NCBI GenBank assembly: GCA_947626365.1
Contig: CANQRW010000024.1
Coordinates: forward strand, 1 to 46,167
From: an uncultured Lachnospiraceae bacterium
Lineage (GTDB): Bacteria > Bacillota > Clostridia > Lachnospirales > Lachnospiraceae
Length of the DNA: 46,167 nucleotides
Direction: 5' to 3'
The notes under the pieces were generated by a model, which worked only from the letters and a program-made list of their open reading frames with translations, was not told where the DNA came from and searched no databases. Positions 777-41,595 of this stretch are shown piece by piece. Position numbers and translations under genes: made by a program. The first letter of the stretch is position 1, and each line of letters begins with the position of its first letter.

Positions 777-1700
777 ATGTACCACTTTATTATTAATCCG
801 AATGCCTGCGATGGGCGGAGTATGAAGATATGGCGGCGGGTTGAGAGACAGCTGGATCGGCTGAGCGAGAACTATGAGGCTCATGTGACGGAGAAGCCGG
901 GAGACAGCAGGCGAATCGCCAGAGAACTGACAAGCGGGAGCAGAGAACCCAGGATTATCGTGGTGATCGGAGGAGACGGCACCATGAACGAGGTGCTGGA
1001 TGGGCTCTCCTTTGGCAGTCCGGTGACAATCGGATATATTCCTGCCGGTTCCGGCAATGATCTTGCGAGGAGTCTGAAGCTGCCCAGAAGGCCGGGAAAG
1101 TGCCTGAAGAAGATTTTGAATCCCAAGTATCATAAGCAGCTGGATTACGGAGTGATTTCCTATGGAGAAGAGTCCGGACACAGGCGGTTTATGGTCAGCA
1201 GTGGAATCGGACTTGATGCTGCGGTATGCCACGATATTCTGGCCTCCAGGGTGAAACGGGGAGTCAAGAAGCTGCGTTTTGGGAAATGGCTGTACATCTT
1301 TTTGGGGATTAAGCAGCTGCTGATTGCCCGGCCGGTGAAAGGCTATCTTCTGCTGGACGGAACCCAGAAGGTGGAATTTAATCATCTGTATTTTGTGTCC
1401 GCCCACATTCACCCTTATGAAGGCGGCGGATTTAAGTTTGCGCCGGGGGCGGATCCCTGTGACGGCAGGCTGACTGTGCGGGTGGTTCATCAGGAAAGCA
1501 AGCCCAAGCTGGTGCCGATTCTTCTGGGAGCGTTAAGGGGCAGCAGAAAGAAATATCCCGGTTCCCGCATCTACACCTGCCAGGAGATGGAGGTTCATAC
1601 GGAACGGCCCATGCCGGTTCATGCGGATGGCGAGAGCTGTATGTGCCAGAAGGACATTCAGATACGCTGTATCCCCCACAGGATACGGATGATCGTGTGA
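777..1700 (+). CDS. Diacylglycerol kinase family lipid kinase (YegS/BmrU type)
   Basis: A 307-residue protein with the DAGK catalytic fold. The nucleotide-binding motif GGDGT is at residues 65-69 and is followed by the Asn-Glu pair typical of the family; GSGND at 91-95 is the second conserved loop. Members phosphorylate diacylglycerol or related lipids with ATP at the membrane, usually as lipid recycling enzymes; the true substrate here is unknown. Length matches the family (about 300). The start at 777 has GGGAGG five bases upstream and its own promoter. It precedes ispF by 126 bp on the same strand, so the two may be co-transcribed. Prediction of the family is firm, of the substrate weak. 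Confidence 0.9.
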   Translation: MYHFIINPNACDGRSMKIWRRVERQLDRLSENYEAHVTEKPGDSRRIARELTSGSREPRIIVVIGGDGTMNEVLDGLSFGSPVTIGYIPAGSGNDLARSLKLPRRPGKCLKKILNPKYHKQLDYGVISYGEESGHRRFMVSSGIGLDAAVCHDILASRVKRGVKKLRFGKWLYIFLGIKQLLIARPVKGYLLLDGTQKVEFNHLYFVSAHIHPYEGGGFKFAPGADPCDGRLTVRVVHQESKPKLVPILLGALRGSRKKYPGSRIYTCQEMEVHTERPMPVHADGESCMCQKDIQIRCIPHRIRMIV

Positions 1701-1826
1701 CCGCGAAACGGCTGCCCAGGGCAGCGGGACAATGAATATGGAACAGATGCCTCCGGCGGGGGACAATGGATTTGGAATGGTTATCCCGGGTGAGCGGGAC
1801 GATGGATAAGGAAAGGATTTTGCGAA

Positions 1827-2399
1827 ATGAGAATCGGACAGGGATATGACGTTCACCGGCTGGTAGAAGGAAGAGATCTGATACTGGGCGGTGTGAAGAT
1901 TCCTTATGAAAAGGGACTGCTGGGGCATTCCGACGCGGATGTGCTGGTTCATGCGGTAATGGACGCCCTTTTAGGGGCGGCGGCTCTGGGCGACATCGGT
2001 CAGCATTTTCCGGATACGGACCCGGCATATCAGGGGATTTCCAGCATAGAACTATTGAAACAGGTAGGTGCTCTTCTGGAAGAGCGGGGATATGTGGTTG
2101 AGAATATTGATGCTACCATTATCGCCCAGCGTCCCAAGCTGGCCGCTTACCGCTCGCAGATGGCGGAGAACATGGCGGCGGCCCTTCATCTTTCCGCGAA
2201 CCGCGTCAGTGTGAAAGCTACCACGGAAGAAGGCCTGGGATTTACGGGAAGCGGTCAGGGAATCGCTTCTCAGGCCATCGCCCTATTGACATCTGTGGAG
2301 GATTACTGTTATGATGACAGGATGAACGCCGGCTGCAGTGGATGTCCGGGCTGTCCGGTGAAGGATGACCGGATAGGCGGACGATCGGTAAGCGGATGA
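1827..2399 (+). CDS. ispF: 2-C-methyl-D-erythritol 2,4-cyclodiphosphate synthase, with extended Cys-rich tail
   Basis: Fifth step of the MEP isoprenoid pathway: cyclises CDP-ME 2-phosphate to MEcPP with loss of CMP. The zinc ligands Asp8, His10 and His42 are all present, as are the family strings [11 protein letters not shown] and [11 protein letters not shown]. Known enzymes are about 157 residues; this one is 190. The extra ~30 residues after the usual end (around VEDYCY) hold a CSGCPGC cluster and finish in residues encoded by a 15-bp tandem repeat that runs past the stop codon. The extension looks like a new C-terminus gained by reading into repeat DNA or a family-specific Cys tail; it could bind metal. 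It is the first gene of a row ispF-cysS-mrnC-rlmB, an arrangement commonly seen in part or whole in Firmicutes. Confidence 0.95.
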
Positions 2400-2500
2400 C
2401 CGGACAGGCAGATAACCGGCAGAGGATGACCGGTAAGCAGATGACCGGACAGGCAGATAATCGGCAGGAGGACGACCGAAAGGCAGAGTAGCCGATGACG
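2364..2500. repeat. 15-bp degenerate tandem repeat at the ispF-cysS junction
   Basis: About nine units of 14-16 bp resembling GATGACCGGACAGGCA, alternating with variants such as GATAACCGGCAGAG and GATGACCGGTAAGCA. A 45-bp higher-order unit (three 15-mers) is repeated almost exactly at about 2395-2439 and 2440-2485. The array begins inside ispF, supplies its last residues and its stop codon, and fills most of the gap before cysS. A second, purine-rich repetition (CAGCAGAACAG at about 2560 and CAGCAGAACAG at 2578) lies just before the cysS ribosome binding site. Confidence 0.8.
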
Positions 2501-2612
2501 GGACAGTGTGCCTCAGAGACGGGCCGCGGCAGGCGCAGCGGCAGAGATGGGAAGAGACGGCAGCAGAACAGAGATGACAGCAGAACAGTGATGAGAGGAG
2601 AGCAGAAATCCA

Positions 2613-4121
2613 ATGAAAATATTTAACACATTGAGCAGGAGGAAAGAGGAGTTTGTACCCCTGGAGCCGGGGAAAGTGAAGATGTATGTCTGCGGCCCCA
2701 CGGTTTACAATTATATCCATATCGGAAACGCCAGGCCCATGATCATCTTCGACACAGTGCGGAGATATTTTGAGTATAAGGGTTATGACGTGAACTATGT
2801 ATCCAATTTTACGGATGTGGACGACAAGATCATCAATAAGGCCAATGAGGAGGGCGTAGACGCCTCTGTAATCTCTGAGCGGTTTATCGCAGAGTGCAAG
2901 AAAGACATGGCGGGACTGAACGTGAAGCCGGCTACCACCCATCCCCAGGCTACTCAGGAGATTCCGGGTATGCTGGATATGATCAGCACGCTGATCGAGA
3001 AGGGCCACGCTTATGCGGCGGAGGACGGAACGGTGTATTTCCGCACGTCTTCTTTTAAGGAATACGGCAAGCTGTCCCACAAGAATCTGGATGAGCTTCA
3101 GTCTGGTTTCCGGGAGATTAAGGTGACCGGAGAGGAAGGCAAGGAGTCGGCGGCGGATTTTGTGCTGTGGAAGCCGAAGAAGGAGGGGGAGCCCTACTGG
3201 GATTCGCCCTGGTGCCAGGGCCGTCCCGGCTGGCATATCGAGTGCTCCGTTATGGCCAAGCGCTATCTGGGAGATGAGATCGATATTCACGCAGGCGGCG
3301 AGGATCTGATCTTCCCTCACCACGAGAATGAGATTGCCCAGAGCGAGTGCGCCAACGGCAAGCCCTTCGCGAAATACTGGATGCACAATGGTTTCCTGAA
3401 TATTGATAATAAGAAGATGTCCAAATCCCTGAACAATTTCTTTACGGTCAGGGAGATCAGTGAGAAATACGACCTGCAGGTGCTGCGTTTCTTCATGCTC
3501 AGCGCCCACTACCGCAGCCCCCTGAATTTCAGCGCGGAGCTGATGGAGGCTTCCAGAAATGGCTTGGAGCGGATCCGCACGGCGGCGGAGAAGCTGAGAG
3601 AGCTGGAAGGCAGGGCGAAAGACCAGGGCTCCGGCAACACCGGGACCGGAACCGCCGCTTCCGGAGATGGAGCTATGCTCGAAGCTGAGGCTGCCGGCGC
3701 TATGACTAAGGCTGAGACTGCCGGCGCTATGACCGAAGCGGAGACAGCAGGCGTAACGCAGGCGAAGGAGCTGGTCGCTAAGTTTGAGGCGGCTATGGAT
3801 GACGATTTCAACACGGCAGATGCGGTTTCTGCCATCTTTGAGCTGGTGAAGCTGAGTAATTCCACTGCGGATGAGAACAGCAGTAAAGCCTATGTGACAT
3901 ATCTTAAAGAGACCATTGAGAAGCTGTGCGGCGTCATGGGAATCGTCACGGAGGTAAAAGCGGAGGCTTTGGATGAGGAGATCGAGGCTCTGATCCAGGC
4001 CCGCCAGCAGGCCCGGAAAGAGAAGAATTACGCCCTGGCAGATGAGATTCGGGGCAGGCTTTCCGGCATGGGCATTATCCTGGAAGATACCAGGGAAGGC
4101 GTCAAATGGAAGAGGGCCTGA
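2613..4121 (+). CDS. cysS: Cysteinyl-tRNA synthetase, with in-frame repeat insertion
   Basis: Charges tRNA-Cys with cysteine. Class I signatures are clear: zinc-ligand Cys27, HIGN at residues 36-39 and KMSKS at 268-272. The 502-residue length is longer than the usual ~465 because of a low-complexity segment near residues 340-385 placed between the catalytic/stem-contact part and the C-terminal helical domain. This segment includes three 9-residue units of the form GAMxxAExA (residues 353-379), encoded by a 27-bp tandem repeat at 3669-3749. The insertion lies where family members have a variable linker, so activity is probably kept. The start is preceded by GAGGAGAG. The gene sits between ispF and mrnC; the mrnC start is 2 bp after the stop, so translation is likely coupled. 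No T-box leader was found upstream. Confidence 0.96.
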   Translation: MKIFNTLSRRKEEFVPLEPGKVKMYVCGPTVYNYIHIGNARPMIIFDTVRRYFEYKGYDVNYVSNFTDVDDKIINKANEEGVDASVISERFIAECKKDMAGLNVKPATTHPQATQEIPGMLDMISTLIEKGHAYAAEDGTVYFRTSSFKEYGKLSHKNLDELQSGFREIKVTGEEGKESAADFVLWKPKKEGEPYWDSPWCQGRPGWHIECSVMAKRYLGDEIDIHAGGEDLIFPHHENEIAQSECANGKPFAKYWMHNGFLNIDNKKMSKSLNNFFTVREISEKYDLQVLRFFMLSAHYRSPLNFSAELMEASRNGLERIRTAAEKLRELEGRAKDQGSGNTGTGTAASGDGAMLEAEAAGAMTKAETAGAMTEAETAGVTQAKELVAKFEAAMDDDFNTADAVSAIFELVKLSNSTADENSSKAYVTYLKETIEKLCGVMGIVTEVKAEALDEEIEALIQARQQARKEKNYALADEIRGRLSGMGIILEDTREGVKWKRA

Positions 4122-4122
4122 T

Positions 4123-4659
4123 ATGGGAGAGGATACGAAGGTGAGCGAAAGCGTATATGGCGGAGAATCGGGCCGGCAGGCCGCCGGAGGCATTCCGGAA
4201 CAGGTTCAGGAAAGCCGGCAGACGGCAGGAAGGGATTCCTGGCAGTATTTCAAGGACACGTTTCATCTTCATAAGATGGATGCCGCCGCCTATTCGCCCC
4301 TTGTTCTGGCCTATATCGGGGACGCGGTCTATGAGGCGGTGATCCGCACGCTTACGGTGGCCCACGGCAATATGCAGGTGAATAAGATGCACCGCCATGA
4401 TGCGGGTCTTCTGAAGGCCTCGGCCCAGGCGGAGATGATCCGGCTTCTGGAGCCGGATCTGACAGAGGAGGAGGAAGCCGTCTATAAGAGAGGCAGAAAC
4501 GCCAAATCTGTCACCAGCGCCAAGAACGCTACTATGATCGATTACCGGAGGGCTACGGGTTTTGAGACGCTTCTGGGATATCTGTATCTTCAGGAGAGGT
4601 TTGAGCGGATGACCGATCTGATTGCCATGGGGCTTGAGAGAATCGGCGAGAAACAGTGA
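4123..4659 (+). CDS. mrnC: Mini-ribonuclease III
   Basis: A 178-residue protein of the RNase III catalytic-domain-only family that trims 23S rRNA precursor ends in Gram-positive bacteria. The core starts near residue 52 (MDAAAYSPLVLAYIGDAVYE) with the catalytic Asp in GDAVYE (residue 67) and ends with the typical ATGFETLLGYLYL segment carrying the second acidic residue. No double-stranded-RNA-binding domain is present, as expected. The chosen ATG at 4123 lies 2 bp after cysS and has AGAGGG upstream at 4111-4116, giving a ~50-residue polar N-terminal extension that the family usually lacks; a start closer to the core cannot be excluded. Adjacent to cysS and rlmB, the usual neighbours. Confidence 0.92.
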   Translation: MGEDTKVSESVYGGESGRQAAGGIPEQVQESRQTAGRDSWQYFKDTFHLHKMDAAAYSPLVLAYIGDAVYEAVIRTLTVAHGNMQVNKMHRHDAGLLKASAQAEMIRLLEPDLTEEEEAVYKRGRNAKSVTSAKNATMIDYRRATGFETLLGYLYLQERFERMTDLIAMGLERIGEKQ

Positions 4660-4686
4660 CCGGATTTCATAAAGGAGATCTGCGTC

Positions 4687-4802
4687 AGACAGAAGAATTG
4701 CGGCAGAATGTTTCGTACCGGACAGAAGAATTGCGGCAGGAAGTTTTGCACCGGACAGAAGAACTGTGGCGGGAAGTTTTGCGTCAGGCAGGAGATTTGC
4801 GG
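4687..4802. repeat. 33-bp tandem repeat before rlmB
   Basis: Three full units at 4687-4719, 4720-4752 and 4753-4785 plus a diverged partial fourth unit to about 4802. The unit reads GGACAGAAGAATTGCGGCAG followed by GAAGTTTTGCACC. The fourth partial unit contains the AGGAG that most likely serves as the rlmB ribosome binding site. Confidence 0.85.
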
Positions 4803-4807
4803 ATAAT

Positions 4808-5593
4808 ATGAATGAGAAGAGTTTAGACAGCAGGATTTTGGATGATGGGGAGACGGACCGTCAGCTGGTGGAAGGAAGAAACGCGGTGCTGGAGGCATTC
4901 CGCTCCGGCAAGACTGTAGACAGGCTGTATGTACTGGACGGATGTAAGGACGGGCCGGTGCAGACCATTGTCCGTGAGGCAAGAAAGCACGATACGATCA
5001 TCAGTTTTGTGTCCAGGGAGCGTCTGGATCAGCTTTCCCAGACCGGACGCCATCAGGGCGTCATCGCCCAGACGGCTGCCTATGAGTATTCCACGGTGGA
5101 AGATATTCTGGAGAGAGCCAGACAGAAGGGAGAGGCGCCATTTCTTATTCTGCTGGACGGTATCGAGGATCCCCATAATCTGGGAGCTATTATCCGGACG
5201 GCCAATCAGGCAGGTGCCCACGGGGTTATCATTCCCAAACGAAGGGCCGTGGGCCTTACGGCAGTGGTGGCGAGGACTTCCGCCGGCGCCCTGAATTACA
5301 CGCCGGTTGCCAAGGTGACCAATCTGACGGCGGCGATTCAGCGGCTGAAGAAGGAAGGGATATGGTTCGTCTGCGCCGATATGGACGGAGAGCTGATGTA
5401 CCGGCAGAATCTGACCGGCCCTATTGGACTGGTGGTGGGAAGCGAGGGAGAAGGCGTCAGCAAGCTGGTTCGTGAGAACTGCGATATGACGGCGGCTATT
5501 CCCATGAAAGGAGACATTGATTCCCTGAACGCATCGGTGGCGGCGGGAATCCTGGCATACGAGATCGTGCGCCAGAGGATGTCGGCAGGGTGA
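4808..5593 (+). CDS. rlmB: 23S rRNA (guanosine-2'-O-)-methyltransferase, SpoU/TrmH family
   Basis: Methylates the ribose of a guanosine in the 23S rRNA peptidyl-transferase region using S-adenosylmethionine. The three SPOUT trefoil-knot motifs are present in order: the Asn/Arg motif LLDGIEDPHNLGAIIRTA, the GLVVGSEGEGVSKLV motif and the Ser/Asn motif IDSLNASVAAGILAYE near the end. An N-terminal RNA-binding substrate domain starts with VEGRNAVLEAF. I chose ATG 4808 (261 residues); a GTG at 4766 would add 14 residues, but these would be coded by the tandem repeat. AGGAG at 4790-4794 is the likely ribosome binding site, 13 bp before the start, which is long. Neighbour of cysS-mrnC as in many Firmicutes. 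Confidence 0.93.
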   Translation: MNEKSLDSRILDDGETDRQLVEGRNAVLEAFRSGKTVDRLYVLDGCKDGPVQTIVREARKHDTIISFVSRERLDQLSQTGRHQGVIAQTAAYEYSTVEDILERARQKGEAPFLILLDGIEDPHNLGAIIRTANQAGAHGVIIPKRRAVGLTAVVARTSAGALNYTPVAKVTNLTAAIQRLKKEGIWFVCADMDGELMYRQNLTGPIGLVVGSEGEGVSKLVRENCDMTAAIPMKGDIDSLNASVAAGILAYEIVRQRMSAG

Positions 5594-5643
5594 TTCCTCC
5601 CCAAATATCCCGAAGGTTGCCGGACAGGACAGATTTTGGCGCA

Positions 5644-5704
5644 GACGATCGGAAAAATAATCGTCAGGCATATTTTCTTCGCGAACTGAGATACTAGAAG
5701 TATC
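5644..5704. promoter_or_regulatory. Two short inverted repeats in the rlmB-ldh gap
   Basis: GACGAT (5644-5649) pairs with ATCGTC (5660-5665), and GATACT (5690-5695) pairs with AGTATC (5699-5704) across three bases. The second is 23 bp before the ldh start and could be an operator. Neither matches a Rex site that I recognise, and no strong promoter was found here. Confidence 0.3.
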
Positions 5705-5727
5705 AAAGCAGGAAGAGAGGTCTGAGG

Positions 5728-6684
5728 ATGGTTAACGATAAGCGGAAGGTAGTTCTGGTGGGAGCAGGTATGGTGGGCATGAGCTACGCCTACTGCCTGG
5801 TGAATCAGAGCGTGTGCAATGAGCTGGTGTTGATCGATATTGACAGAAAACGAGCGGAAGGCGAGGCTATGGATTTAAACCATGGCCTTGCCTTTGCTGC
5901 TGCTAATATGAAAATATTTGCGGGAGATTATGAGGACTGCCGGGACGCGGATATGGTGGTGATCTGTGCCGGCGCCGCTCAGAAGCCGGGAGAAACCCGG
6001 CTGGATCTTCTGAAGCGGAACGCGGCGGTGTTCCGTTCCATCATCGAACCGGTAACCGCCTCGGGATTTGACGGGATTTTCCTGGTAGCTACTAATCCTG
6101 TAGATGTGATGACCAGGATTACCTACGCCCTGTCCGGTTTTAATCCCCGCAGGGTTTTGGGAAGCGGCACGGCCCTGGATACGGCGCGCCTGCGGTATCT
6201 TCTGGGCGAATACCTGCGTGTGGATCCCAGAAATATCCATGCCTATGTCATAGGAGAGCACGGAGACAGCGAATTTGTGCCCTGGAGCCAGGCTCTTCTG
6301 GCCACCAAGCCCATTGTAGAGATGTGTGACGAACTTTGCGACGGTCAGGACGAGATCTGCGTGGACCGGCTCAACGATATTGTGGCCCAGGTACAGGGCG
6401 CCGCTTACAAGATCATCGAGGCCAAGCGGGCCACCTACTACGGAATCGGCATGGCCATGACCAGGATTACCAGGGCTATTTTAAATGACGAGAACAGCGT
6501 TCTCACCGTGTCCGCCATGCTGCGGGGCGAATACGGACAGACCGATGTGTTTGCGGGAGTTCCCTGCATCATCAACCGAAACGGGATTCAGCGGGTGCTG
6601 GAATTATCCCTGAATCAGGAGGAACGGGAGAAAATGGACCGCTCCTGCCGGATACTCAGGGACAGCTATGACCAGATGCGGTGA
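5728..6684 (+). CDS. ldh: L-lactate dehydrogenase
   Basis: Interconverts pyruvate/NADH and L-lactate/NAD+. The 318-residue protein opens with the NAD-binding loop VLVGAGMVGMSYAY, followed by VLIDID where the acidic residue selects NADH, then ATNPVDVMT and the catalytic IGEHGDSEFVPWS with the active-site His. The loop CAGAAQKPGETRLDLLKRN carries Gln at the specificity position (GAAQKPGETR), typical of LDH, whereas malate dehydrogenases carry Arg there. Start at 5728 follows AGGAAGAGAGG. It stands alone between rlmB and the macrodomain gene and gives the cell a route to dispose of fermentation electrons. Confidence 0.94.
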   Translation: MVNDKRKVVLVGAGMVGMSYAYCLVNQSVCNELVLIDIDRKRAEGEAMDLNHGLAFAAANMKIFAGDYEDCRDADMVVICAGAAQKPGETRLDLLKRNAAVFRSIIEPVTASGFDGIFLVATNPVDVMTRITYALSGFNPRRVLGSGTALDTARLRYLLGEYLRVDPRNIHAYVIGEHGDSEFVPWSQALLATKPIVEMCDELCDGQDEICVDRLNDIVAQVQGAAYKIIEAKRATYYGIGMAMTRITRAILNDENSVLTVSAMLRGEYGQTDVFAGVPCIINRNGIQRVLELSLNQEEREKMDRSCRILRDSYDQMR

Positions 6685-35049: not shown

Positions 35050-36365
35050 TTAAAACATAAATTTACAAATAATGCTCAGAATTAAAACAGTAAGTATTGC
35101 ACGCTCAAACCAAATTGCCAGCACATGCGTGAATTTCACCGGTACCTTTGTGGAATAGAGGGAGGCCAGGAAAGCACCGAAGAAAATTACAAGAGGCGCA
35201 GCGAAGCAGCGGCGAAAAACATTGCAGCCGGTTCCAGGCCCATAGCGCCAAGTCCCAGGGTAGCGGAAATCGGATTCACAAACGAGAGTCCTACCGCATT
35301 GGCCAGCTCTGCCGCATTTGGAATACCAAACAGCTTGATGATCGGCAGGAACAGGTATCCGAGAAGCGTAAAGATCGGTGTGTACTTATTGACCAGCGCC
35401 GGGAATACCCACATGGAGACCGCGCTGACATGAGTTCCTGCAACCATCATCAGAGATCTGGAACCTGTATTCCACATGGCCTGAAGGGGATTGGGAGCCT
35501 TTTCGGCAACTGCAACACCGGTAAGCCATGCTTCTTTCAGAATGCTGCCCTCGCTTCTCGTCTCTTTGGGAGGTTCCATATTCTTATAATAAGTATCCGG
35601 AACCATTGACAGAGGAGGAATCCTGGCTATAATCGCAGTCACAATATACACAAGAAACGCGGTTACCAGAAATACAGTCGTCCAGTTTCCTGACTGACCG
35701 TTGGCATTGGCAAACATCAGCAGCAGCGCGATAGAAGTGGTGCAAAGGCTGGTGCCAATGATGTTGGCTTCTCTGGTTGTCAGCTTTCCTTCCGTATAAA
35801 GCTGATTGTCCTGAATGTGTCCTACAGTGAAGTTTACGAGAAACGCGCCGATTGCTACCACAGCCGTCGTACCGGGCAGCCGGAAAACCTTTCTCATAAT
35901 AGGCTGAAAAATAACACCTACAAAATCGACAAGTCCAAAATCAAGCAGGAACGGAAGAAAGAACGTGATTACATAAACCATCACAAATGCGTTGCCCATA
36001 TTGCTGATAGCGGCCGGAATAATATCCGACTCAAACATAAACGCCGGTCCGATATGAAACAGCTGCATCAAAACCATAATGGCGCCGAGAATCGAAAACA
36101 CCATAATCACTTTTCCGGCAGTAGACCCGTTCCATCCCTTGGTCCGCCACAGATTGATCAAATAGAGGATTGAGCAGACAAGAAGCACCTGCGCGGAATA
36201 AGGCTGTAAAGCGGTTGTAAAAATCGATGTAATAAAATCGATCGGCAGCTGAGAGGTTCCGTTAATGGGAATCTGCACAAAAAACAGAATAATACCGATG
36301 AGGCTGCAAATAACAAACTTGGCTGCGCTTGCAGGATTGACAGTGGCTTTTGCAGACGTTGACAT
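35050..36365 (-). pseudogene. YjiH-type permease, 1-nt frameshift near the 3' end
   Basis: The intact frame from ATG 36365 (after AGGAGG) codes about 387 residues with at least nine membrane segments, GNAFVMVYVITFFLPFLLDFGLVDFVGV and GVAVAEKAPN being typical of the YjiH/nucleoside-recognition gate family, then breaks at SLRLL with a TAA at 35187. Reading two rather than three bases at about 35203-35205 continues the protein for 50 more codons (AAPLVIFFGAFLASLYSTKV ... FTHVLAIWFERAILTVLIL) to a TAA at 35050, just before the terminator. So a single base appears to be missing at about 35205. It may be a true recent lesion or a sequencing error. Family substrates are unproven. Same strand as the hydrolase and AroA-like genes upstream. 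Confidence 0.85.
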
Positions 36366-36406
36366 TGTTTAATTCCTCCTATGTATTTTGAATAAAATGG
36401 TTTCAA

Positions 36407-37162
36407 TCAGTCTTTCATGGCAATGGCGTGAAGCGCAAAAGAGAGTTCAATCGGCGCTGAGAAGAAGGCAGAGTGATCCGCCTGGATTTCGTAAGCCGCT
36501 TCACACGGGGAAGCAGTGAGCATCTGCTGTACTGCGTCAGGGTCAGCAGCGCCGTCATCCGATGCCGCGATGTAGAATCTTCTTACACTTCCCCAGCGGC
36601 TTTCTGTGGGATTCACTGGCGCGACTAAAGGCTCAATAGCTTCCGGGCAAAGCCTTTCAACAATATAACGCTGATCCGGGGCGCTGCAGCTGTTTGTAAG
36701 TCTCTCAAAAACCTGTTTTTGACTCCAGGGGGCTGTTTTTCCGTCTTCTGAACGGGAATATAGGTCAATCGGCTTTATTCCGTTGTCAAGGCCGTTAACG
36801 GACTGTCCGTCCCTCAGCATGAAAGCGGCAAAGTATACCAGTTTTTTGACTTTCTGGGGTCGGGCTTCAGCCGCCATGGTAATCACAGCGCCGCCCATGC
36901 TGTGTCCTACTAAAATCACAGGCTCCGGCTGTTCATCAAGAATACGGACGATCTCCGCAACATATGTTTGCAGTGTCTGTTCCGCTATAGGCTCTTTCCG
37001 GTTTCCGTGGCCGGGAAGATCAGGGCATATGGTTTTGTGCCCCAGTATATGCAAAATATTTTCCACACGCTCCCAGCACCACGCGCCGTGCCATGCGCCA
37101 TGAACAAGAAGAAATGTTTCCGGTTTCCTTACGGAAATCAATGGTTGTACCGTTACGCTCAC
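36407..37162 (-). CDS. Alpha/beta hydrolase, methylesterase-like (EstC/MES group)
   Basis: A 251-residue soluble hydrolase. The oxyanion loop FLLVHGAWHGAWCWERV, nucleophile elbow VGHSMGG, and His in ADHSAFFSAP form the expected triad; Asp is probably in the DDGAADP region. The HGAWHGAWCW start is the mark of the plant-type esterase/hydroxynitrile-lyase group, which cleaves methyl esters of small acids and similar bonds. It begins with GTG at 37162, preceded by AAGGAGGGG, 8 bp away; no in-frame ATG is better placed. Lies 22 bp from the AroA-like gene and 42 bp before the permease gene, so the three are probably one message. Confidence 0.87.
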   Translation of the reverse strand: MSVTVQPLISVRKPETFLLVHGAWHGAWCWERVENILHILGHKTICPDLPGHGNRKEPIAEQTLQTYVAEIVRILDEQPEPVILVGHSMGGAVITMAAEARPQKVKKLVYFAAFMLRDGQSVNGLDNGIKPIDLYSRSEDGKTAPWSQKQVFERLTNSCSAPDQRYIVERLCPEAIEPLVAPVNPTESRWGSVRRFYIAASDDGAADPDAVQQMLTASPCEAAYEIQADHSAFFSAPIELSFALHAIAMKD

Positions 37163-37183
37163 AATAATCCCCTCCTTTTACAG

Positions 37184-38482
37184 TCATCTGACGGTTTCCA
37201 GTCGCTGGATATCCGCTCCGAGGCTCTTCATCTGATCATAGAATTCCGGATATGATACTGCCGCAAATTCGGCATTGTCAATAATTGTCGGTCCGTCTGC
37301 GATCAAAGCCGCCACACCTGTAGCCATGACAATCCGGTGATCATGGTGTCCATCGATAAAGGTTCCTTTTAACTTGGACGGATAAATGACAAGGTTATTT
37401 TCGTCCTCTTCAAATTTACCGCCCATTCGTTCCAGCTGCTCACGGATGATTTTAGTGCGGTCGGTTTCTTTCAGTCTGGAACCGCGGATATTGGTAAGGA
37501 CGGTTTTGCCTTCTTTACAGGCGCATCCGTATACCGCCAGAATAGGCACCGCGTCCGGCATACCGGAGCAGTCGATTACCTGGCCTTTCAGATGGTCGGA
37601 ACCGGTTACCCGAATGCCCCCTTCAACCAGTTCGACTGTACAGCCGGCATTTCGAAGCACATTGATGAACTCCTTTTCTCCGGCATAATCTTCCGGGTTC
37701 AGATTCAGGAAAGCAGCAGTGGAATTTGTGATTGCCGCGGCGAAGGCAGGATATCCGCTGCTGCCCCAGTCACCGGGAATTACGAAATCCGTAGCGTGAT
37801 ACTTCTGGCCGCCGATGATCTTGTAATGTCTGTAGTTATCATTCACCACATCGACGCCTGCCTGTTTCATCATTCCCATTGTCATAGCCACATAGGGAAT
37901 CTCCAAAGTCTCGCCTTCGATGTCAATGTCTACTTCTCCTTCCATCAAAGAACCGATCATCATCAGGCCTGTGTACCACTGAGAATTATGTCCGGGGAAG
38001 GTCAGATGTTTTCCGCCTTTAATGCCGCCCTTGATCCATAGCGGCGCTAACCCGTTGTCCCGGGTGGATACAATCGACGCGCCCAGCTCGTTGGCTGCTT
38101 CAATCAGGGGACCGGCCGGACGGTAGCAGATCTGATAATCACCGGTCATGACGCATTTTGCAGGGATACTGGAGGCGAGCCATGTACAGCAGTAGTAGCC
38201 GGTGCCGGAATTACCCGCGTCAAGTACGTTGACCGGCTGCTTTAATGTGCCGCTGGTACCTTTTACCTTCCAGAGATTATCGTCAGAGGTGTCGAATTCA
38301 GCCCCCATATTCTCCAGCATGTGAAGAATGGAGTAGCTGTCCGCATTGTGAAGGGGATTACGGATAGTGGTGGTACCGTCGGCAAGAGCGCCTAAGATCA
38401 GCGCGCGGGCTGTGCCGGATTTGTTCCCGGGGATTGAAATAGTTCCGCTGAGTTTGTCTGTCCTGTTTACTAAGAATTTCAT
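37184..38482 (-). CDS. aroA: EPSP synthase family protein (AroA-like), divergent
   Basis: A 432-residue enolpyruvyl transferase fold. Kept family residues: PGNKSGTARALIL (Lys, Ser and Arg of the substrate loop), GNSGTG, the RPAGPLIEAANELGA motif, NSQW, MPDAVPILAV (Asp), SRLKETDR and DHRIVMATG. Changed: the usual NAGTAMR reads NSGTGYY so its Arg is lost, and the C-terminal Lys that contacts PEP in known enzymes (CVAKTFP-like) appears as Val in AAVSYPEFY. So either a diverged EPSP synthase or an enzyme for another substrate. It is not in a shikimate operon: it heads an operon with an alpha/beta hydrolase and a permease, opposite a LysR gene. Codon use is more AT-rich than the housekeeping genes. 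Confidence 0.82.
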   Translation of the reverse strand: MKFLVNRTDKLSGTISIPGNKSGTARALILGALADGTTTIRNPLHNADSYSILHMLENMGAEFDTSDDNLWKVKGTSGTLKQPVNVLDAGNSGTGYYCCTWLASSIPAKCVMTGDYQICYRPAGPLIEAANELGASIVSTRDNGLAPLWIKGGIKGGKHLTFPGHNSQWYTGLMMIGSLMEGEVDIDIEGETLEIPYVAMTMGMMKQAGVDVVNDNYRHYKIIGGQKYHATDFVIPGDWGSSGYPAFAAAITNSTAAFLNLNPEDYAGEKEFINVLRNAGCTVELVEGGIRVTGSDHLKGQVIDCSGMPDAVPILAVYGCACKEGKTVLTNIRGSRLKETDRTKIIREQLERMGGKFEEDENNLVIYPSKLKGTFIDGHHDHRIVMATGVAALIADGPTIIDNAEFAAVSYPEFYDQMKSLGADIQRLETVR

Positions 38483-38594
38483 TTTGAGTACTCCCTTCTT
38501 TTGGATTTCGATTTGTTTTATAGTTTGATTGTAACGGTAAAAGAAGGATTTGTGAAATTGTTATACACAATATATATTTATAGATAAATATAAT

Positions 38595-38627
38595 AAATCA
38601 TATCGGATCAGATTGCTATTATGATTT
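38595..38627. promoter_or_regulatory. Inverted repeat in the AroA-like/LysR divergent promoter region
   Basis: AAATCATA (38595-38602) and TATGATTT (38620-38627) are exact inverted repeats 17 bp apart inside a very AT-rich 186-bp gap. This is a likely binding site for the LysR protein made from 38669. Clear -35/-10 pairs are hard to choose in such AT-rich DNA. Confidence 0.5.
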
Positions 38628-38668
38628 AAATATGTTATAGTTATTATAGAAAATATGGGAGTATAGAA

Positions 38669-39565
38669 ATGGAGATCAGTCAGATTCAATATATAAATGC
38701 TGTTTATAAATATGGCAATTTTTCAAAGGCCGCGGAGCATCTCTATATCACGCAGCCTACGTTATCGCAGCAGATTAAAAAACTGGAGGATGAGATTGGT
38801 TTTTCTCTTTTCATCAGGACGACGAGAACAGTAGCCTTAACAGAGGAGGGAAAGACATTTCTCCAATACGCCACTCCGCTTTTGACTGCGTATGATATTT
38901 TGCTCCAGGAGATGGATCAGCTGCGGAATAGGCAGGACAAAGTTCTTCAATTTGGCATTCTGCCGACGTTTTCTCATTTAAACATTCTGGATGCCATCCA
39001 TCGGTTTCAATCTCAGAATCAGAATATTTCTATACATGTTCAGATTCAGAAGAGCAATCGATTGATCGACAGCCTTCTCAGCGGTCAGATTGACGCGGCC
39101 ATCGCAAACCTGACCCGAAATTGTCTCGAATCTTTTGATCAATCCTTTGATATACGCATTTTTTCACGCGACCGGATTCACGTTCTCATTAATTCTTCAC
39201 ATCCGCTATCATCCAAACCAGTGATCGGCATTACGGAGCTGGCGAATGAATCATTGATTATGCTGGATAAAGATTCAAGCATTCGTAATCAGATAGAAAA
39301 TGCGTTCAAACAGGTCGGAATCATTCCTACGATTACATATGACTGTCCAGAGATCCACAGTTTGATTGGCATGTTACAGTCCGGCGTCGGAGTCAGCTTT
39401 CTGTCTTCCCGTGTGGCGCAGCAATATATAAAACCGCCTATTCTCAGTATTCCTCTGAGTCCTGTGATAGAAACTCAGACGGCCGTAATCTATTCAAAGA
39501 GAAACCGCAAAGCAGATATATTGAAAAATTTCGCGGATTATTTTGAACGTGAGGTTCTGCATTAA
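38669..39565 (+). CDS. LysR-family regulator divergent from the AroA-like operon
   Basis: A 298-residue LysR regulator: helix-turn-helix at residues 1-60 (MEISQIQYINAVYKYGNFSKA, TQPTLSQQIKKLEDEIGFSLF) and an effector domain from about 92 (LQFGILPTFSHLNILDAIHRF). The gene is clearly lower in GC than its right-hand neighbour, the MATE gene, in line with transfer together with the AroA-like/hydrolase/permease operon. Being divergent with a shared, palindrome-bearing promoter region, it most likely controls that operon in answer to its substrate. Confidence 0.9.
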   Translation: MEISQIQYINAVYKYGNFSKAAEHLYITQPTLSQQIKKLEDEIGFSLFIRTTRTVALTEEGKTFLQYATPLLTAYDILLQEMDQLRNRQDKVLQFGILPTFSHLNILDAIHRFQSQNQNISIHVQIQKSNRLIDSLLSGQIDAAIANLTRNCLESFDQSFDIRIFSRDRIHVLINSSHPLSSKPVIGITELANESLIMLDKDSSIRNQIENAFKQVGIIPTITYDCPEIHSLIGMLQSGVGVSFLSSRVAQQYIKPPILSIPLSPVIETQTAVIYSKRNRKADILKNFADYFEREVLH

Positions 39566-41100: not shown

Positions 41101-41595
41101 ATGAGCTTTCTTCAAGATGCGCAGATTATGATTCCAGAAATCACCGGCGTGGCCCTGACCGTGTTTGGCCGCAGCGTCGAAGCCTACAGAACGTTTGAAA
41201 AGAAGTTCTGCTTTGCCAGCCTGTACCAGCCTCTGTATACAGAGAAGGGGCTGCGTTCCTTCTTTGAGGAAAAAAGCGCTGCCAACGTCTGTCATATTAC
41301 CGATGCACTGGAAACAAAAATCCTGTTGGCCAACTGCGGCGCGCAGGAGAATATTTTGATGTCATATAAAATGTACCGCTGCAGTTTGCCGCTCGTCGCC
41401 CAGGCTGGTATGCGGAGCATTGCCTTAATGATGGTAAGCAACACGGAAACGATTGTTCCGCTTAACCCTGTCCAAATTAAGCTGGATGTTAAAAAATCAG
41501 AAGATCTGCCGGTGCAGATTCTACCGGCATTCAGTAATGAGCAGACGGTAAACCAAAACTACGCATGGGAATTACAGATCATGGAAGCTGAATAA
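41101..41595 (+). CDS. Hypothetical protein, 164 residues
   Basis: I do not recognise this protein. It has no signal peptide or membrane helix. The middle (FASLYQPLYTEKGLRSFFEEKSAANV split at residues ~38-63) could be part of a small sensory fold, and the rest is beta-rich (IALMMVSNTETIVPLNPVQIKLDVKK). AAGGAAG lies 8 bp before the ATG. It follows the MATE gene by 42 bp and may share its transcript. Its stop is 2 bp from that of the convergent TVP38 remnant, so the deleted region begins right here. Confidence 0.6.
   Translation: MSFLQDAQIMIPEITGVALTVFGRSVEAYRTFEKKFCFASLYQPLYTEKGLRSFFEEKSAANVCHITDALETKILLANCGAQENILMSYKMYRCSLPLVAQAGMRSIALMMVSNTETIVPLNPVQIKLDVKKSEDLPVQILPAFSNEQTVNQNYAWELQIMEAE

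Follow-up and report, generated by a model that had tools for sequence, protein, structure and literature searches.

EPSP (5-enolpyruvylshikimate-3-phosphate) synthase, the AroA protein and the target of glyphosate, is commonly taken as an indicator of chorismate biosynthesis. The NikO-type enolpyruvyl transferases of nucleoside antibiotic formation provide a precedent for an EPSP-synthase-like enzyme working on another acceptor, and are encoded in biosynthetic clusters without linkage to importers. Here, we analyzed an AroA-like gene located in a small gene island (positions 35050–39565) of a contig from an uncultured Lachnospiraceae bacterium (CANQRW010000024.1; the complete stretch of 46,167 nucleotides is referred to as the window). 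The encoded protein belongs to a clade of EPSP synthase paralogues, called the core clade in the following, whose genes are recurrently linked to importers and regulators, and whose members keep the phosphoenolpyruvate (PEP) and catalytic residues of EPSP synthase and carry altered residues on the acceptor side. With a probability of roughly one half, we propose that the AroA-like protein is a neofunctionalised EPSP synthase paralogue, namely an enolpyruvyl transferase that depends on PEP and acts on an imported hydroxy-carboxylate, with a dedicated importer and regulator. No importer-linked AroA clade was described in the titles and abstract openings of the open-access literature that we searched. 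The island contains the following features:

35187..36365, minus strand: YjiH-type permease (Gate domain), 392 amino acids; PF07670, 35.1 bits (cut-off 29.6)
36407..37162, minus strand: alpha/beta hydrolase of the SABP2, hydroxynitrile lyase and esterase type, 251 amino acids; PF12697, 92.6 bits
37184..38482, minus strand: AroA-like protein of the core clade (transporter-linked EPSP synthase paralogues), 432 amino acids; PF00275, 296 bits; TIGR01356, 353 bits
38483..38668, no strand: intergenic regulatory region of 186 bp with 24% GC and inverted repeats
38669..39565, plus strand: LysR-type regulator, 298 amino acids, divergent from the AroA-like gene; PF03466 and PF00126

The coordinates bear out the gene order, strands and facing LysR gene described in an earlier note made from the letters of this DNA, including the gaps of 41 bp between permease and hydrolase and of 21 bp between hydrolase and AroA-like gene, which on a single strand suggest an operon. 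In a profile search, the AroA-like protein reached 353.1 bits on TIGR01356 (cut-off 287), and its structural model (pLDDT 95.3) adopts the two-domain fold with TM-scores of 0.93–0.94 to closed EPSP synthases bound to shikimate-3-phosphate (S3P; 7tm5, 1g6s). The genome of the window strain (G000) encodes four PF00275 proteins, comprising two that are MurA-like by eye (C2, C22), the window protein and a further AroA at C62. The latter has 476 amino acids, scores 429.8 bits on TIGR01356 and adjoins a prephenate dehydrogenase gene (tyrA) with a DAHP synthase gene nearby (both by eye); matches to aroC, aroB and shikimate kinase are all present in the same genome. We therefore rejected the possibility that the island carries the only aroA of the genome. 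Given this second aroA, the window protein is not just an EPSP synthase in a displaced position, which the earlier note would have concluded from a sole aroA; that note had suggested counting the canonical aroA genes.

All 34 full-length core sequences cluster together (support 100/100) in a 50-sequence tree, and the clade has members in Bacillota, Spirochaetota and Thermodesulfobacteriota. We compared the neighbourhoods of 36 core loci, one per core genome and including a fragment (L035) and a broken gene (L053), with those of 56 other AroA loci, using 34 queries at 50 bits within 6 kb. The comparison set was derived from 57 loci by removing L190, a LacI-linked member of the sister clade, and consists of 50 of the 67 ordinary-AroA loci among the GTDB-scan matches listed together with L010, L033, L119, L120, L187 and L188; 17 ordinary-AroA loci, mostly on short contigs, stand outside this test. 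As the importer and regulator queries were drawn from core or sister loci, with the YjiH permease of the window counted by self-match, the control is valid for the queried families only: an importer of these families lies within 6 kb at 34/36 core loci and at 0/56 ordinary loci. The full 6 kb on both sides was available for 23/36 core and 37/56 other loci, so that both rates are possibly too low. The core importers belong to the TRAP-TAXI (21), NitT-type ATP-binding cassette (ABC; 5), branched-chain-type ABC (4), tripartite tricarboxylate (TTT; 3) and YjiH (1, the window) types. Likewise, an IclR, LacI or LysR regulator is found nearby at 27/36 core versus 0/56 ordinary loci. The reverse holds for aroB, aroC, aroE or aroK, which occur within 6 kb at 0/36 core versus 19/56 ordinary loci.

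Along the tree, the importer class changes at least eight times and the regulator class at least three times. Repeated swapping of the importer beside the same enzyme is expected if the imported compound matters to that enzyme. Example importer proteins from the core loci match PF16868, PF06808, PF03401, PF01970 and PF09084 by profile, and the branched-chain-type examples match solved binding proteins of that type; among the PDB relatives of the linked binding proteins, none was close enough for naming a ligand. The coupling of an AroA-like gene with an importer and a regulator, as proposed in the earlier note, thus recurs widely across the core loci. The same four-gene neighbourhood, which it had suggested seeking in other genomes, was seen in the window only: neither the hydrolase nor the YjiH permease has a match (50 bits, 6 kb) at any of the 35 remaining core loci. 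This uniqueness could be taken to mean that a foreign aroA came by chance to lie beside an unrelated permease, hydrolase and LysR gene in a single strain, and the position of the window sequence in the tree, where its long branch joins the Sphaerochaeta sequences with low support (90/67), would fit such an event. We nevertheless consider it quite improbable, given the operon-like spacing of the minus-strand genes, the importer linkage at 33/35 other core loci and the LysR gene of Marasmitruncus massiliensis (L045), which likewise diverges from the AroA-like gene and whose product shares 32% identity with the LysR of the window.

Residues were compared between 34 core, 6 sister-clade and 63 ordinary AroAs (E. 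coli numbering throughout). The PEP-binding and catalytic residues K22, G96, R124, Q171, D313, E341, R344, H385 and R386 are invariant in 34/34 core proteins. Three other positions separate the core from all ordinary AroAs compared: position 169 is Asn, position 172 is Trp and position 336 is Ala, Gly, Pro or Ser in 34/34 core proteins, and in each case in 0/63 ordinary ones. In tobacco EPSP synthase, the phosphate of S3P is held by the side chains of Lys358, Arg105 and Ser206 and by the backbone of Ser179 (PMC12256929), which correspond in our own numbering to K340, R100, S197 and S170. On the E. coli-like S3P phosphate side (R100, S169, S197, N336, K340), only K340 is retained in the core, where it is kept in 34/34 proteins. 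R27 and S23, on the shikimate carboxylate side, are likewise kept in 34/34 proteins. The PEP half of the active site is thus retained and the acceptor half modestly altered. In our proposal, the imported acceptor would probably be unphosphorylated.

The losses of an Arg and of a C-terminal Lys, from which the earlier note had argued, are real (R100 to Tyr and K411 to Val) but constitute weak evidence, both being common in ordinary AroAs. Tyr100 occurs in all core proteins and also in 30/63 ordinary AroAs, and Glu197 in the core and in 44/63 ordinary AroAs. Position 411, named for PEP binding in PMC3411725, is Val or Ile in the core and in 61/63 ordinary proteins (Val in the window protein, Ile in the AroA at C62), and the loss of this Lys was consequently rejected as a sign of a new function. 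Tyr100 alone was rejected as well, as it is present in the sole-copy AroAs L049, L052, L054, L076 and L100, of which L052 and L054 adjoin aroC. Taken together, the other data support the view of the window protein as a specialised, import-linked AroA relative, a functional variant within a family of known enzymes, while the residue reasons first given for it carry little weight.

The core protein is also encoded in genomes without detected aroB, aroC and shikimate kinase genes. A match to aroC was obtained in 24/36 core genomes (in G1279 only as a fragment of 76 positions, below the cut-off) and in 14/14 control genomes; it was not found in the other 12/36 (G138, G208, G289, G462, G464, G466, G467, G1153, G1179, G1191, G1366 and G1387). 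Of these twelve genomes, the search for aroB covered the first seven and gave no match in G138, G208, G289, G462, G464, G466 and G467 (control 11/14). Neither shikimate kinase (PF01202; control 10/14) nor an ordinary AroA by TIGR01356 was found in G138, G208, G289, G462, G466 and G467. Completeness values, available for three of these six, amount to 97% (G138), 93% (G289) and 93% (G208); G138 also carries a sister-clade AroA copy. In addition, AroA copies were counted in 22 core genomes; the 13 core genomes that were included later from the G460 phylum stand outside this count. By one count, 12/22 encode a second full-length AroA-type protein (G000, G109, G138, G183, G201, G231, G261, G369, G460, G461, G464 and G465), with G458 as a thirteenth, whereas G457, G463 and G468 contain only pieces of a second copy. 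In G138 and G458 (L190), the second copy belongs to the sister clade.

A salvage function is an alternative, in which the AroA-like protein would be a genuine EPSP synthase, inducible and serving chorismate formation, and the importer would supply its starting material in the form of shikimate, quinate or a related compound. This is favoured by the retention of K340 and of the carboxylate-side residues R27 and S23 in all 34 proteins, the score above the TIGR01356 cut-off, the chorismate mutase neighbours at 4/36 loci and the sister-clade locus L034, which lies between aroD/aroE and aroC and has an Opp-type importer. Against salvage stand the 12/36 core genomes lacking an aroC match, three of them rated 93–97% complete, the missing shikimate kinase match in the six of those twelve that were tested, the second AroA-type protein in 12/22 of the counted genomes and the absence of aroB/C/E/K genes within 6 kb of all 36 core loci. 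We regard salvage as unlikely, though it deserves serious consideration.

A number of observations weigh against our proposal of a neofunctionalised, import-linked transferase. First, the window protein exceeds the cut-off of TIGR01356, which is an equivalog model. Second, Tyr100 and Glu197 are shared with many ordinary AroAs, several of which are probably genuine EPSP synthases, and few positions therefore set the core apart; the sister clade (n = 6) is also variable at two of these, with Asn169 in one member and Gly or Ser at position 336 in two. Third, the window sequence sits on the long branch mentioned above. Fourth, the linkage has exceptions on both sides, since the core loci L181 and L183 show no match to any neighbour query and no importer of the tested kinds, and the ordinary spirochaete AroAs L076 and L081 are adjoined, by eye, by oligopeptide-type ABC genes, a kind that was not among the queries. 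Fifth, G459 has the core AroA-like protein alone and yet contains aroB, aroC and shikimate kinase. The absences themselves are affected by the sensitivity of the aroB and PF01202 searches, which were positive in only 11 and 10 of the 14 control genomes, and by gene clustering: in relatives such as G460, G461, G109 and G183, a stretch of about 6 kb contains aroA, aroB and aroC, together with aroK in the genomes searched for it, so that one missing contig could remove all of them from a draft genome. For this reason, we did not treat the absences as independent. Finally, a chorismate mutase gene directly follows the AroA-like gene at four NitT-linked loci, which could point to aromatic biosynthesis:

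L042, 11284-11571: chorismate mutase gene
L047, 8266-8631: chorismate mutase gene (TIGR01807, 75.3 bits, cut-off 69.6)
L175, 3626-3919: chorismate mutase gene
L177, 1224-1532: chorismate mutase gene

At these loci, the match edges of the AroA-like and chorismate mutase genes are 3–24 bp apart and the frames overlap. Among the four genomes, aroC was matched in G1344, and no aroC match was obtained in G462, G467 and G1366. The chorismate mutase neighbour could be a remnant of aromatic biosynthesis, or else a second enzyme whose substrate is an enolpyruvyl product. In a bolder version of our proposal, the core enzymes would activate an imported unphosphorylated hydroxy-carboxylate by means of PEP and a partner would then remove or rearrange the enolpyruvyl group, resulting in a PEP-driven assimilation or dehydration route that is unrelated to chorismate biosynthesis and has spread horizontally. 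The candidate partners would be the alpha/beta hydrolase in the window and the chorismate-mutase-fold protein at the four NitT-linked loci. Both folds include members that work on enolpyruvyl compounds, such as MenH, chorismate mutase and PchB. The hydrolase of the window, however, is more closely related to SABP2 and hydroxynitrile lyase. We consider this extended route improbable.

With regard to the neofunctionalised transferase itself, a hydroxyl-bearing carboxylate would be imported by the YjiH-type permease in the window strain, and by TRAP-TAXI, TTT, or branched-chain-type or NitT-type ABC systems elsewhere. Using PEP and the conserved EPSP synthase machinery, the AroA-like enzyme, which probably acts on the imported compound, would transfer an enolpyruvyl group onto this carboxylate or catalyze the reverse step, under the control of a LysR, IclR or LacI switch. 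In the window strain, the alpha/beta hydrolase would probably prepare an imported ester or process the product. Treating the imported compound as the substrate is our inference, as are the direction and chemistry of the reaction, the nature of the substrate and every role of the hydrolase. A purely catabolic function in the reverse direction, in which an imported enolpyruvyl ether would be split with phosphate into PEP and an alcohol, is compatible with the reversibility of the EPSP synthase reaction, with the importer linkage and with the retention of all nine compared PEP and catalytic residues. Nothing recognised in the neighbourhoods indicates an enolpyruvyl ether, and we know of no such ether that is abundant in the environment; this option therefore seems very improbable to us.

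The sister clade comprises six sequences (L011, L032, L034, L048, L118 and L190; support 92/86), with TTT importers at L032, L048 and L118, Opp-type importers (by eye) at L011 and L034, and a LacI gene at every locus except L034. At the latter (802-5906), genes for AroE, a TIM-barrel protein, AroD, the sister-clade AroA and AroC lie in a row and are followed by the Opp-type importer genes (by eye); no aroB match was found in this genome. The position of this AroA between aroD/aroE and aroC suggests that the sister clade may still serve chorismate synthesis. At L011 (5744-17596, in G007), the sister-clade AroA has an M20 peptidase, an MmgE/PrpD protein, an FAD oxidoreductase and the Opp-type importer as neighbours. 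The genome of L118 (G505, 99% complete), where the AroA is linked to TTT and LacI genes, encodes two shikimate-kinase-family proteins and gave no aroB or aroC match.

The distribution of the core protein is patchy. In 25 genomes of the same genus, no core match was found at E <= 1e-60, and the 38% relative in the congener G007 was placed in the sister clade. A sample of 392 genomes of the order returned only the window and the sister-clade member G505 at E <= 1e-110, and a small search in 12 genomes of the class gave nothing further. Within a 398-genome sample of the window's phylum, 12 genomes including the window's own had matches at E <= 1e-65, and 10 of these encode the core protein, in G208 as a fragment of 298 amino acids. 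The GTDB contig scan yielded 12 core loci among the best 80 loci listed, with hosts including Sphaerochaeta, other Spirochaetota, Dethiosulfatarculus sandiegensis, Marasmitruncus massiliensis and metagenome-assembled genomes labelled as delta- or other Proteobacteria. In the phylum of Dethiosulfatarculus (345 genomes), 16 genomes carry the core protein, with three further matches at E <= 1e-150 left out of the core. In that of Sphaerochaeta (296 genomes), the core protein was found in two genomes; 91 other matches at E <= 1e-115 were classed as other AroAs by score, and the 28 of these that entered the residue comparison all carry Gln336. A plasmid search with the AroA-like protein returned eight records with 29–33% identity. 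At L053 (7577-8778), the core AroA-like gene is broken into two frames in a metagenome-assembled genome, either naturally or by assembly error.

Turning to the remaining features of the island, the intergenic region between the AroA-like and LysR genes conforms to the palindrome-bearing, AT-rich promoter described before, with three perfect 9-bp inverted repeats (38594-38602/38620-38628, 38573-38581/38584-38592 and 38494-38502/38539-38547). Three or more such repeats occurred in 1.2% of 2000 dinucleotide shuffles of this region, and they are thus somewhat above chance. The permease owes its name to 31% identity over 89% of its length with a Sinorhizobium meliloti protein annotated as belonging to the YjiH family, and a sequence comparison with the PDB revealed no relative. 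The closest solved structures of the hydrolase by sequence are 8hfw, SABP2 and a hydroxynitrile lyase-like protein, with a nearly full-length match to SABP2 (85 bits, residues 14–249). A search of the window and four loci with Rfam detected one tRNA only.

The lower GC content proposed for the island was confirmed (0.469 versus 0.539 in the remainder of the window), and none of 131 other segments of equal length has a value below 0.515. Mobility as a unit, which had been suggested on this basis, fits the GC-poor composition and the lack of a core homologue in the 25 congeners, but no integrase or transposase adjoining the island was recognised by eye and in a Pfam scan of the neighbours; the island may be mobile, as judged from GC content and patchy distribution only. 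Elsewhere in the window, an open frame at the edge (1-405) resembles, by eye, the end of an IS30-type transposase, and an open reading frame of 164 amino acids (41101-41595) has no Pfam match at E <= 1e-5.

If our proposal is true, a set of 'aroA' annotations, given to these proteins by the equivalog model, would be wrong, and the core clade would indicate a use of PEP that has not been described so far. Through the linked binding proteins, the question of the substrate is directly testable. In comparison with known systems, the core proteins share with EPSP synthase the fold, the length, the PEP and catalytic residues and a score above the curated cut-off. They differ in that they are usually paralogues encoded beside importers rather than aro genes, in positions 169, 172 and 336, which are unlike those of all 63 ordinary AroAs, and in their additional occurrence in genomes without detected aroB, aroC and shikimate kinase. 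With MurA (UDP-GlcNAc enolpyruvyl transferase), they share the superfamily and the PEP chemistry, but the window protein reaches only 97, 88 and 70 bits on three MurA models, whose cut-offs are 297, 393 and 552 bits, respectively, and the genome has the two MurA-like genes elsewhere. Proteins beside the core genes match profiles or solved structures of the TRAP-TAXI, TTT, branched-chain-type and NitT-type ABC uptake systems; what distinguishes the core loci from these systems is the linkage to an AroA paralogue, along with binding proteins that are too distant from known ones for their ligands to be named.

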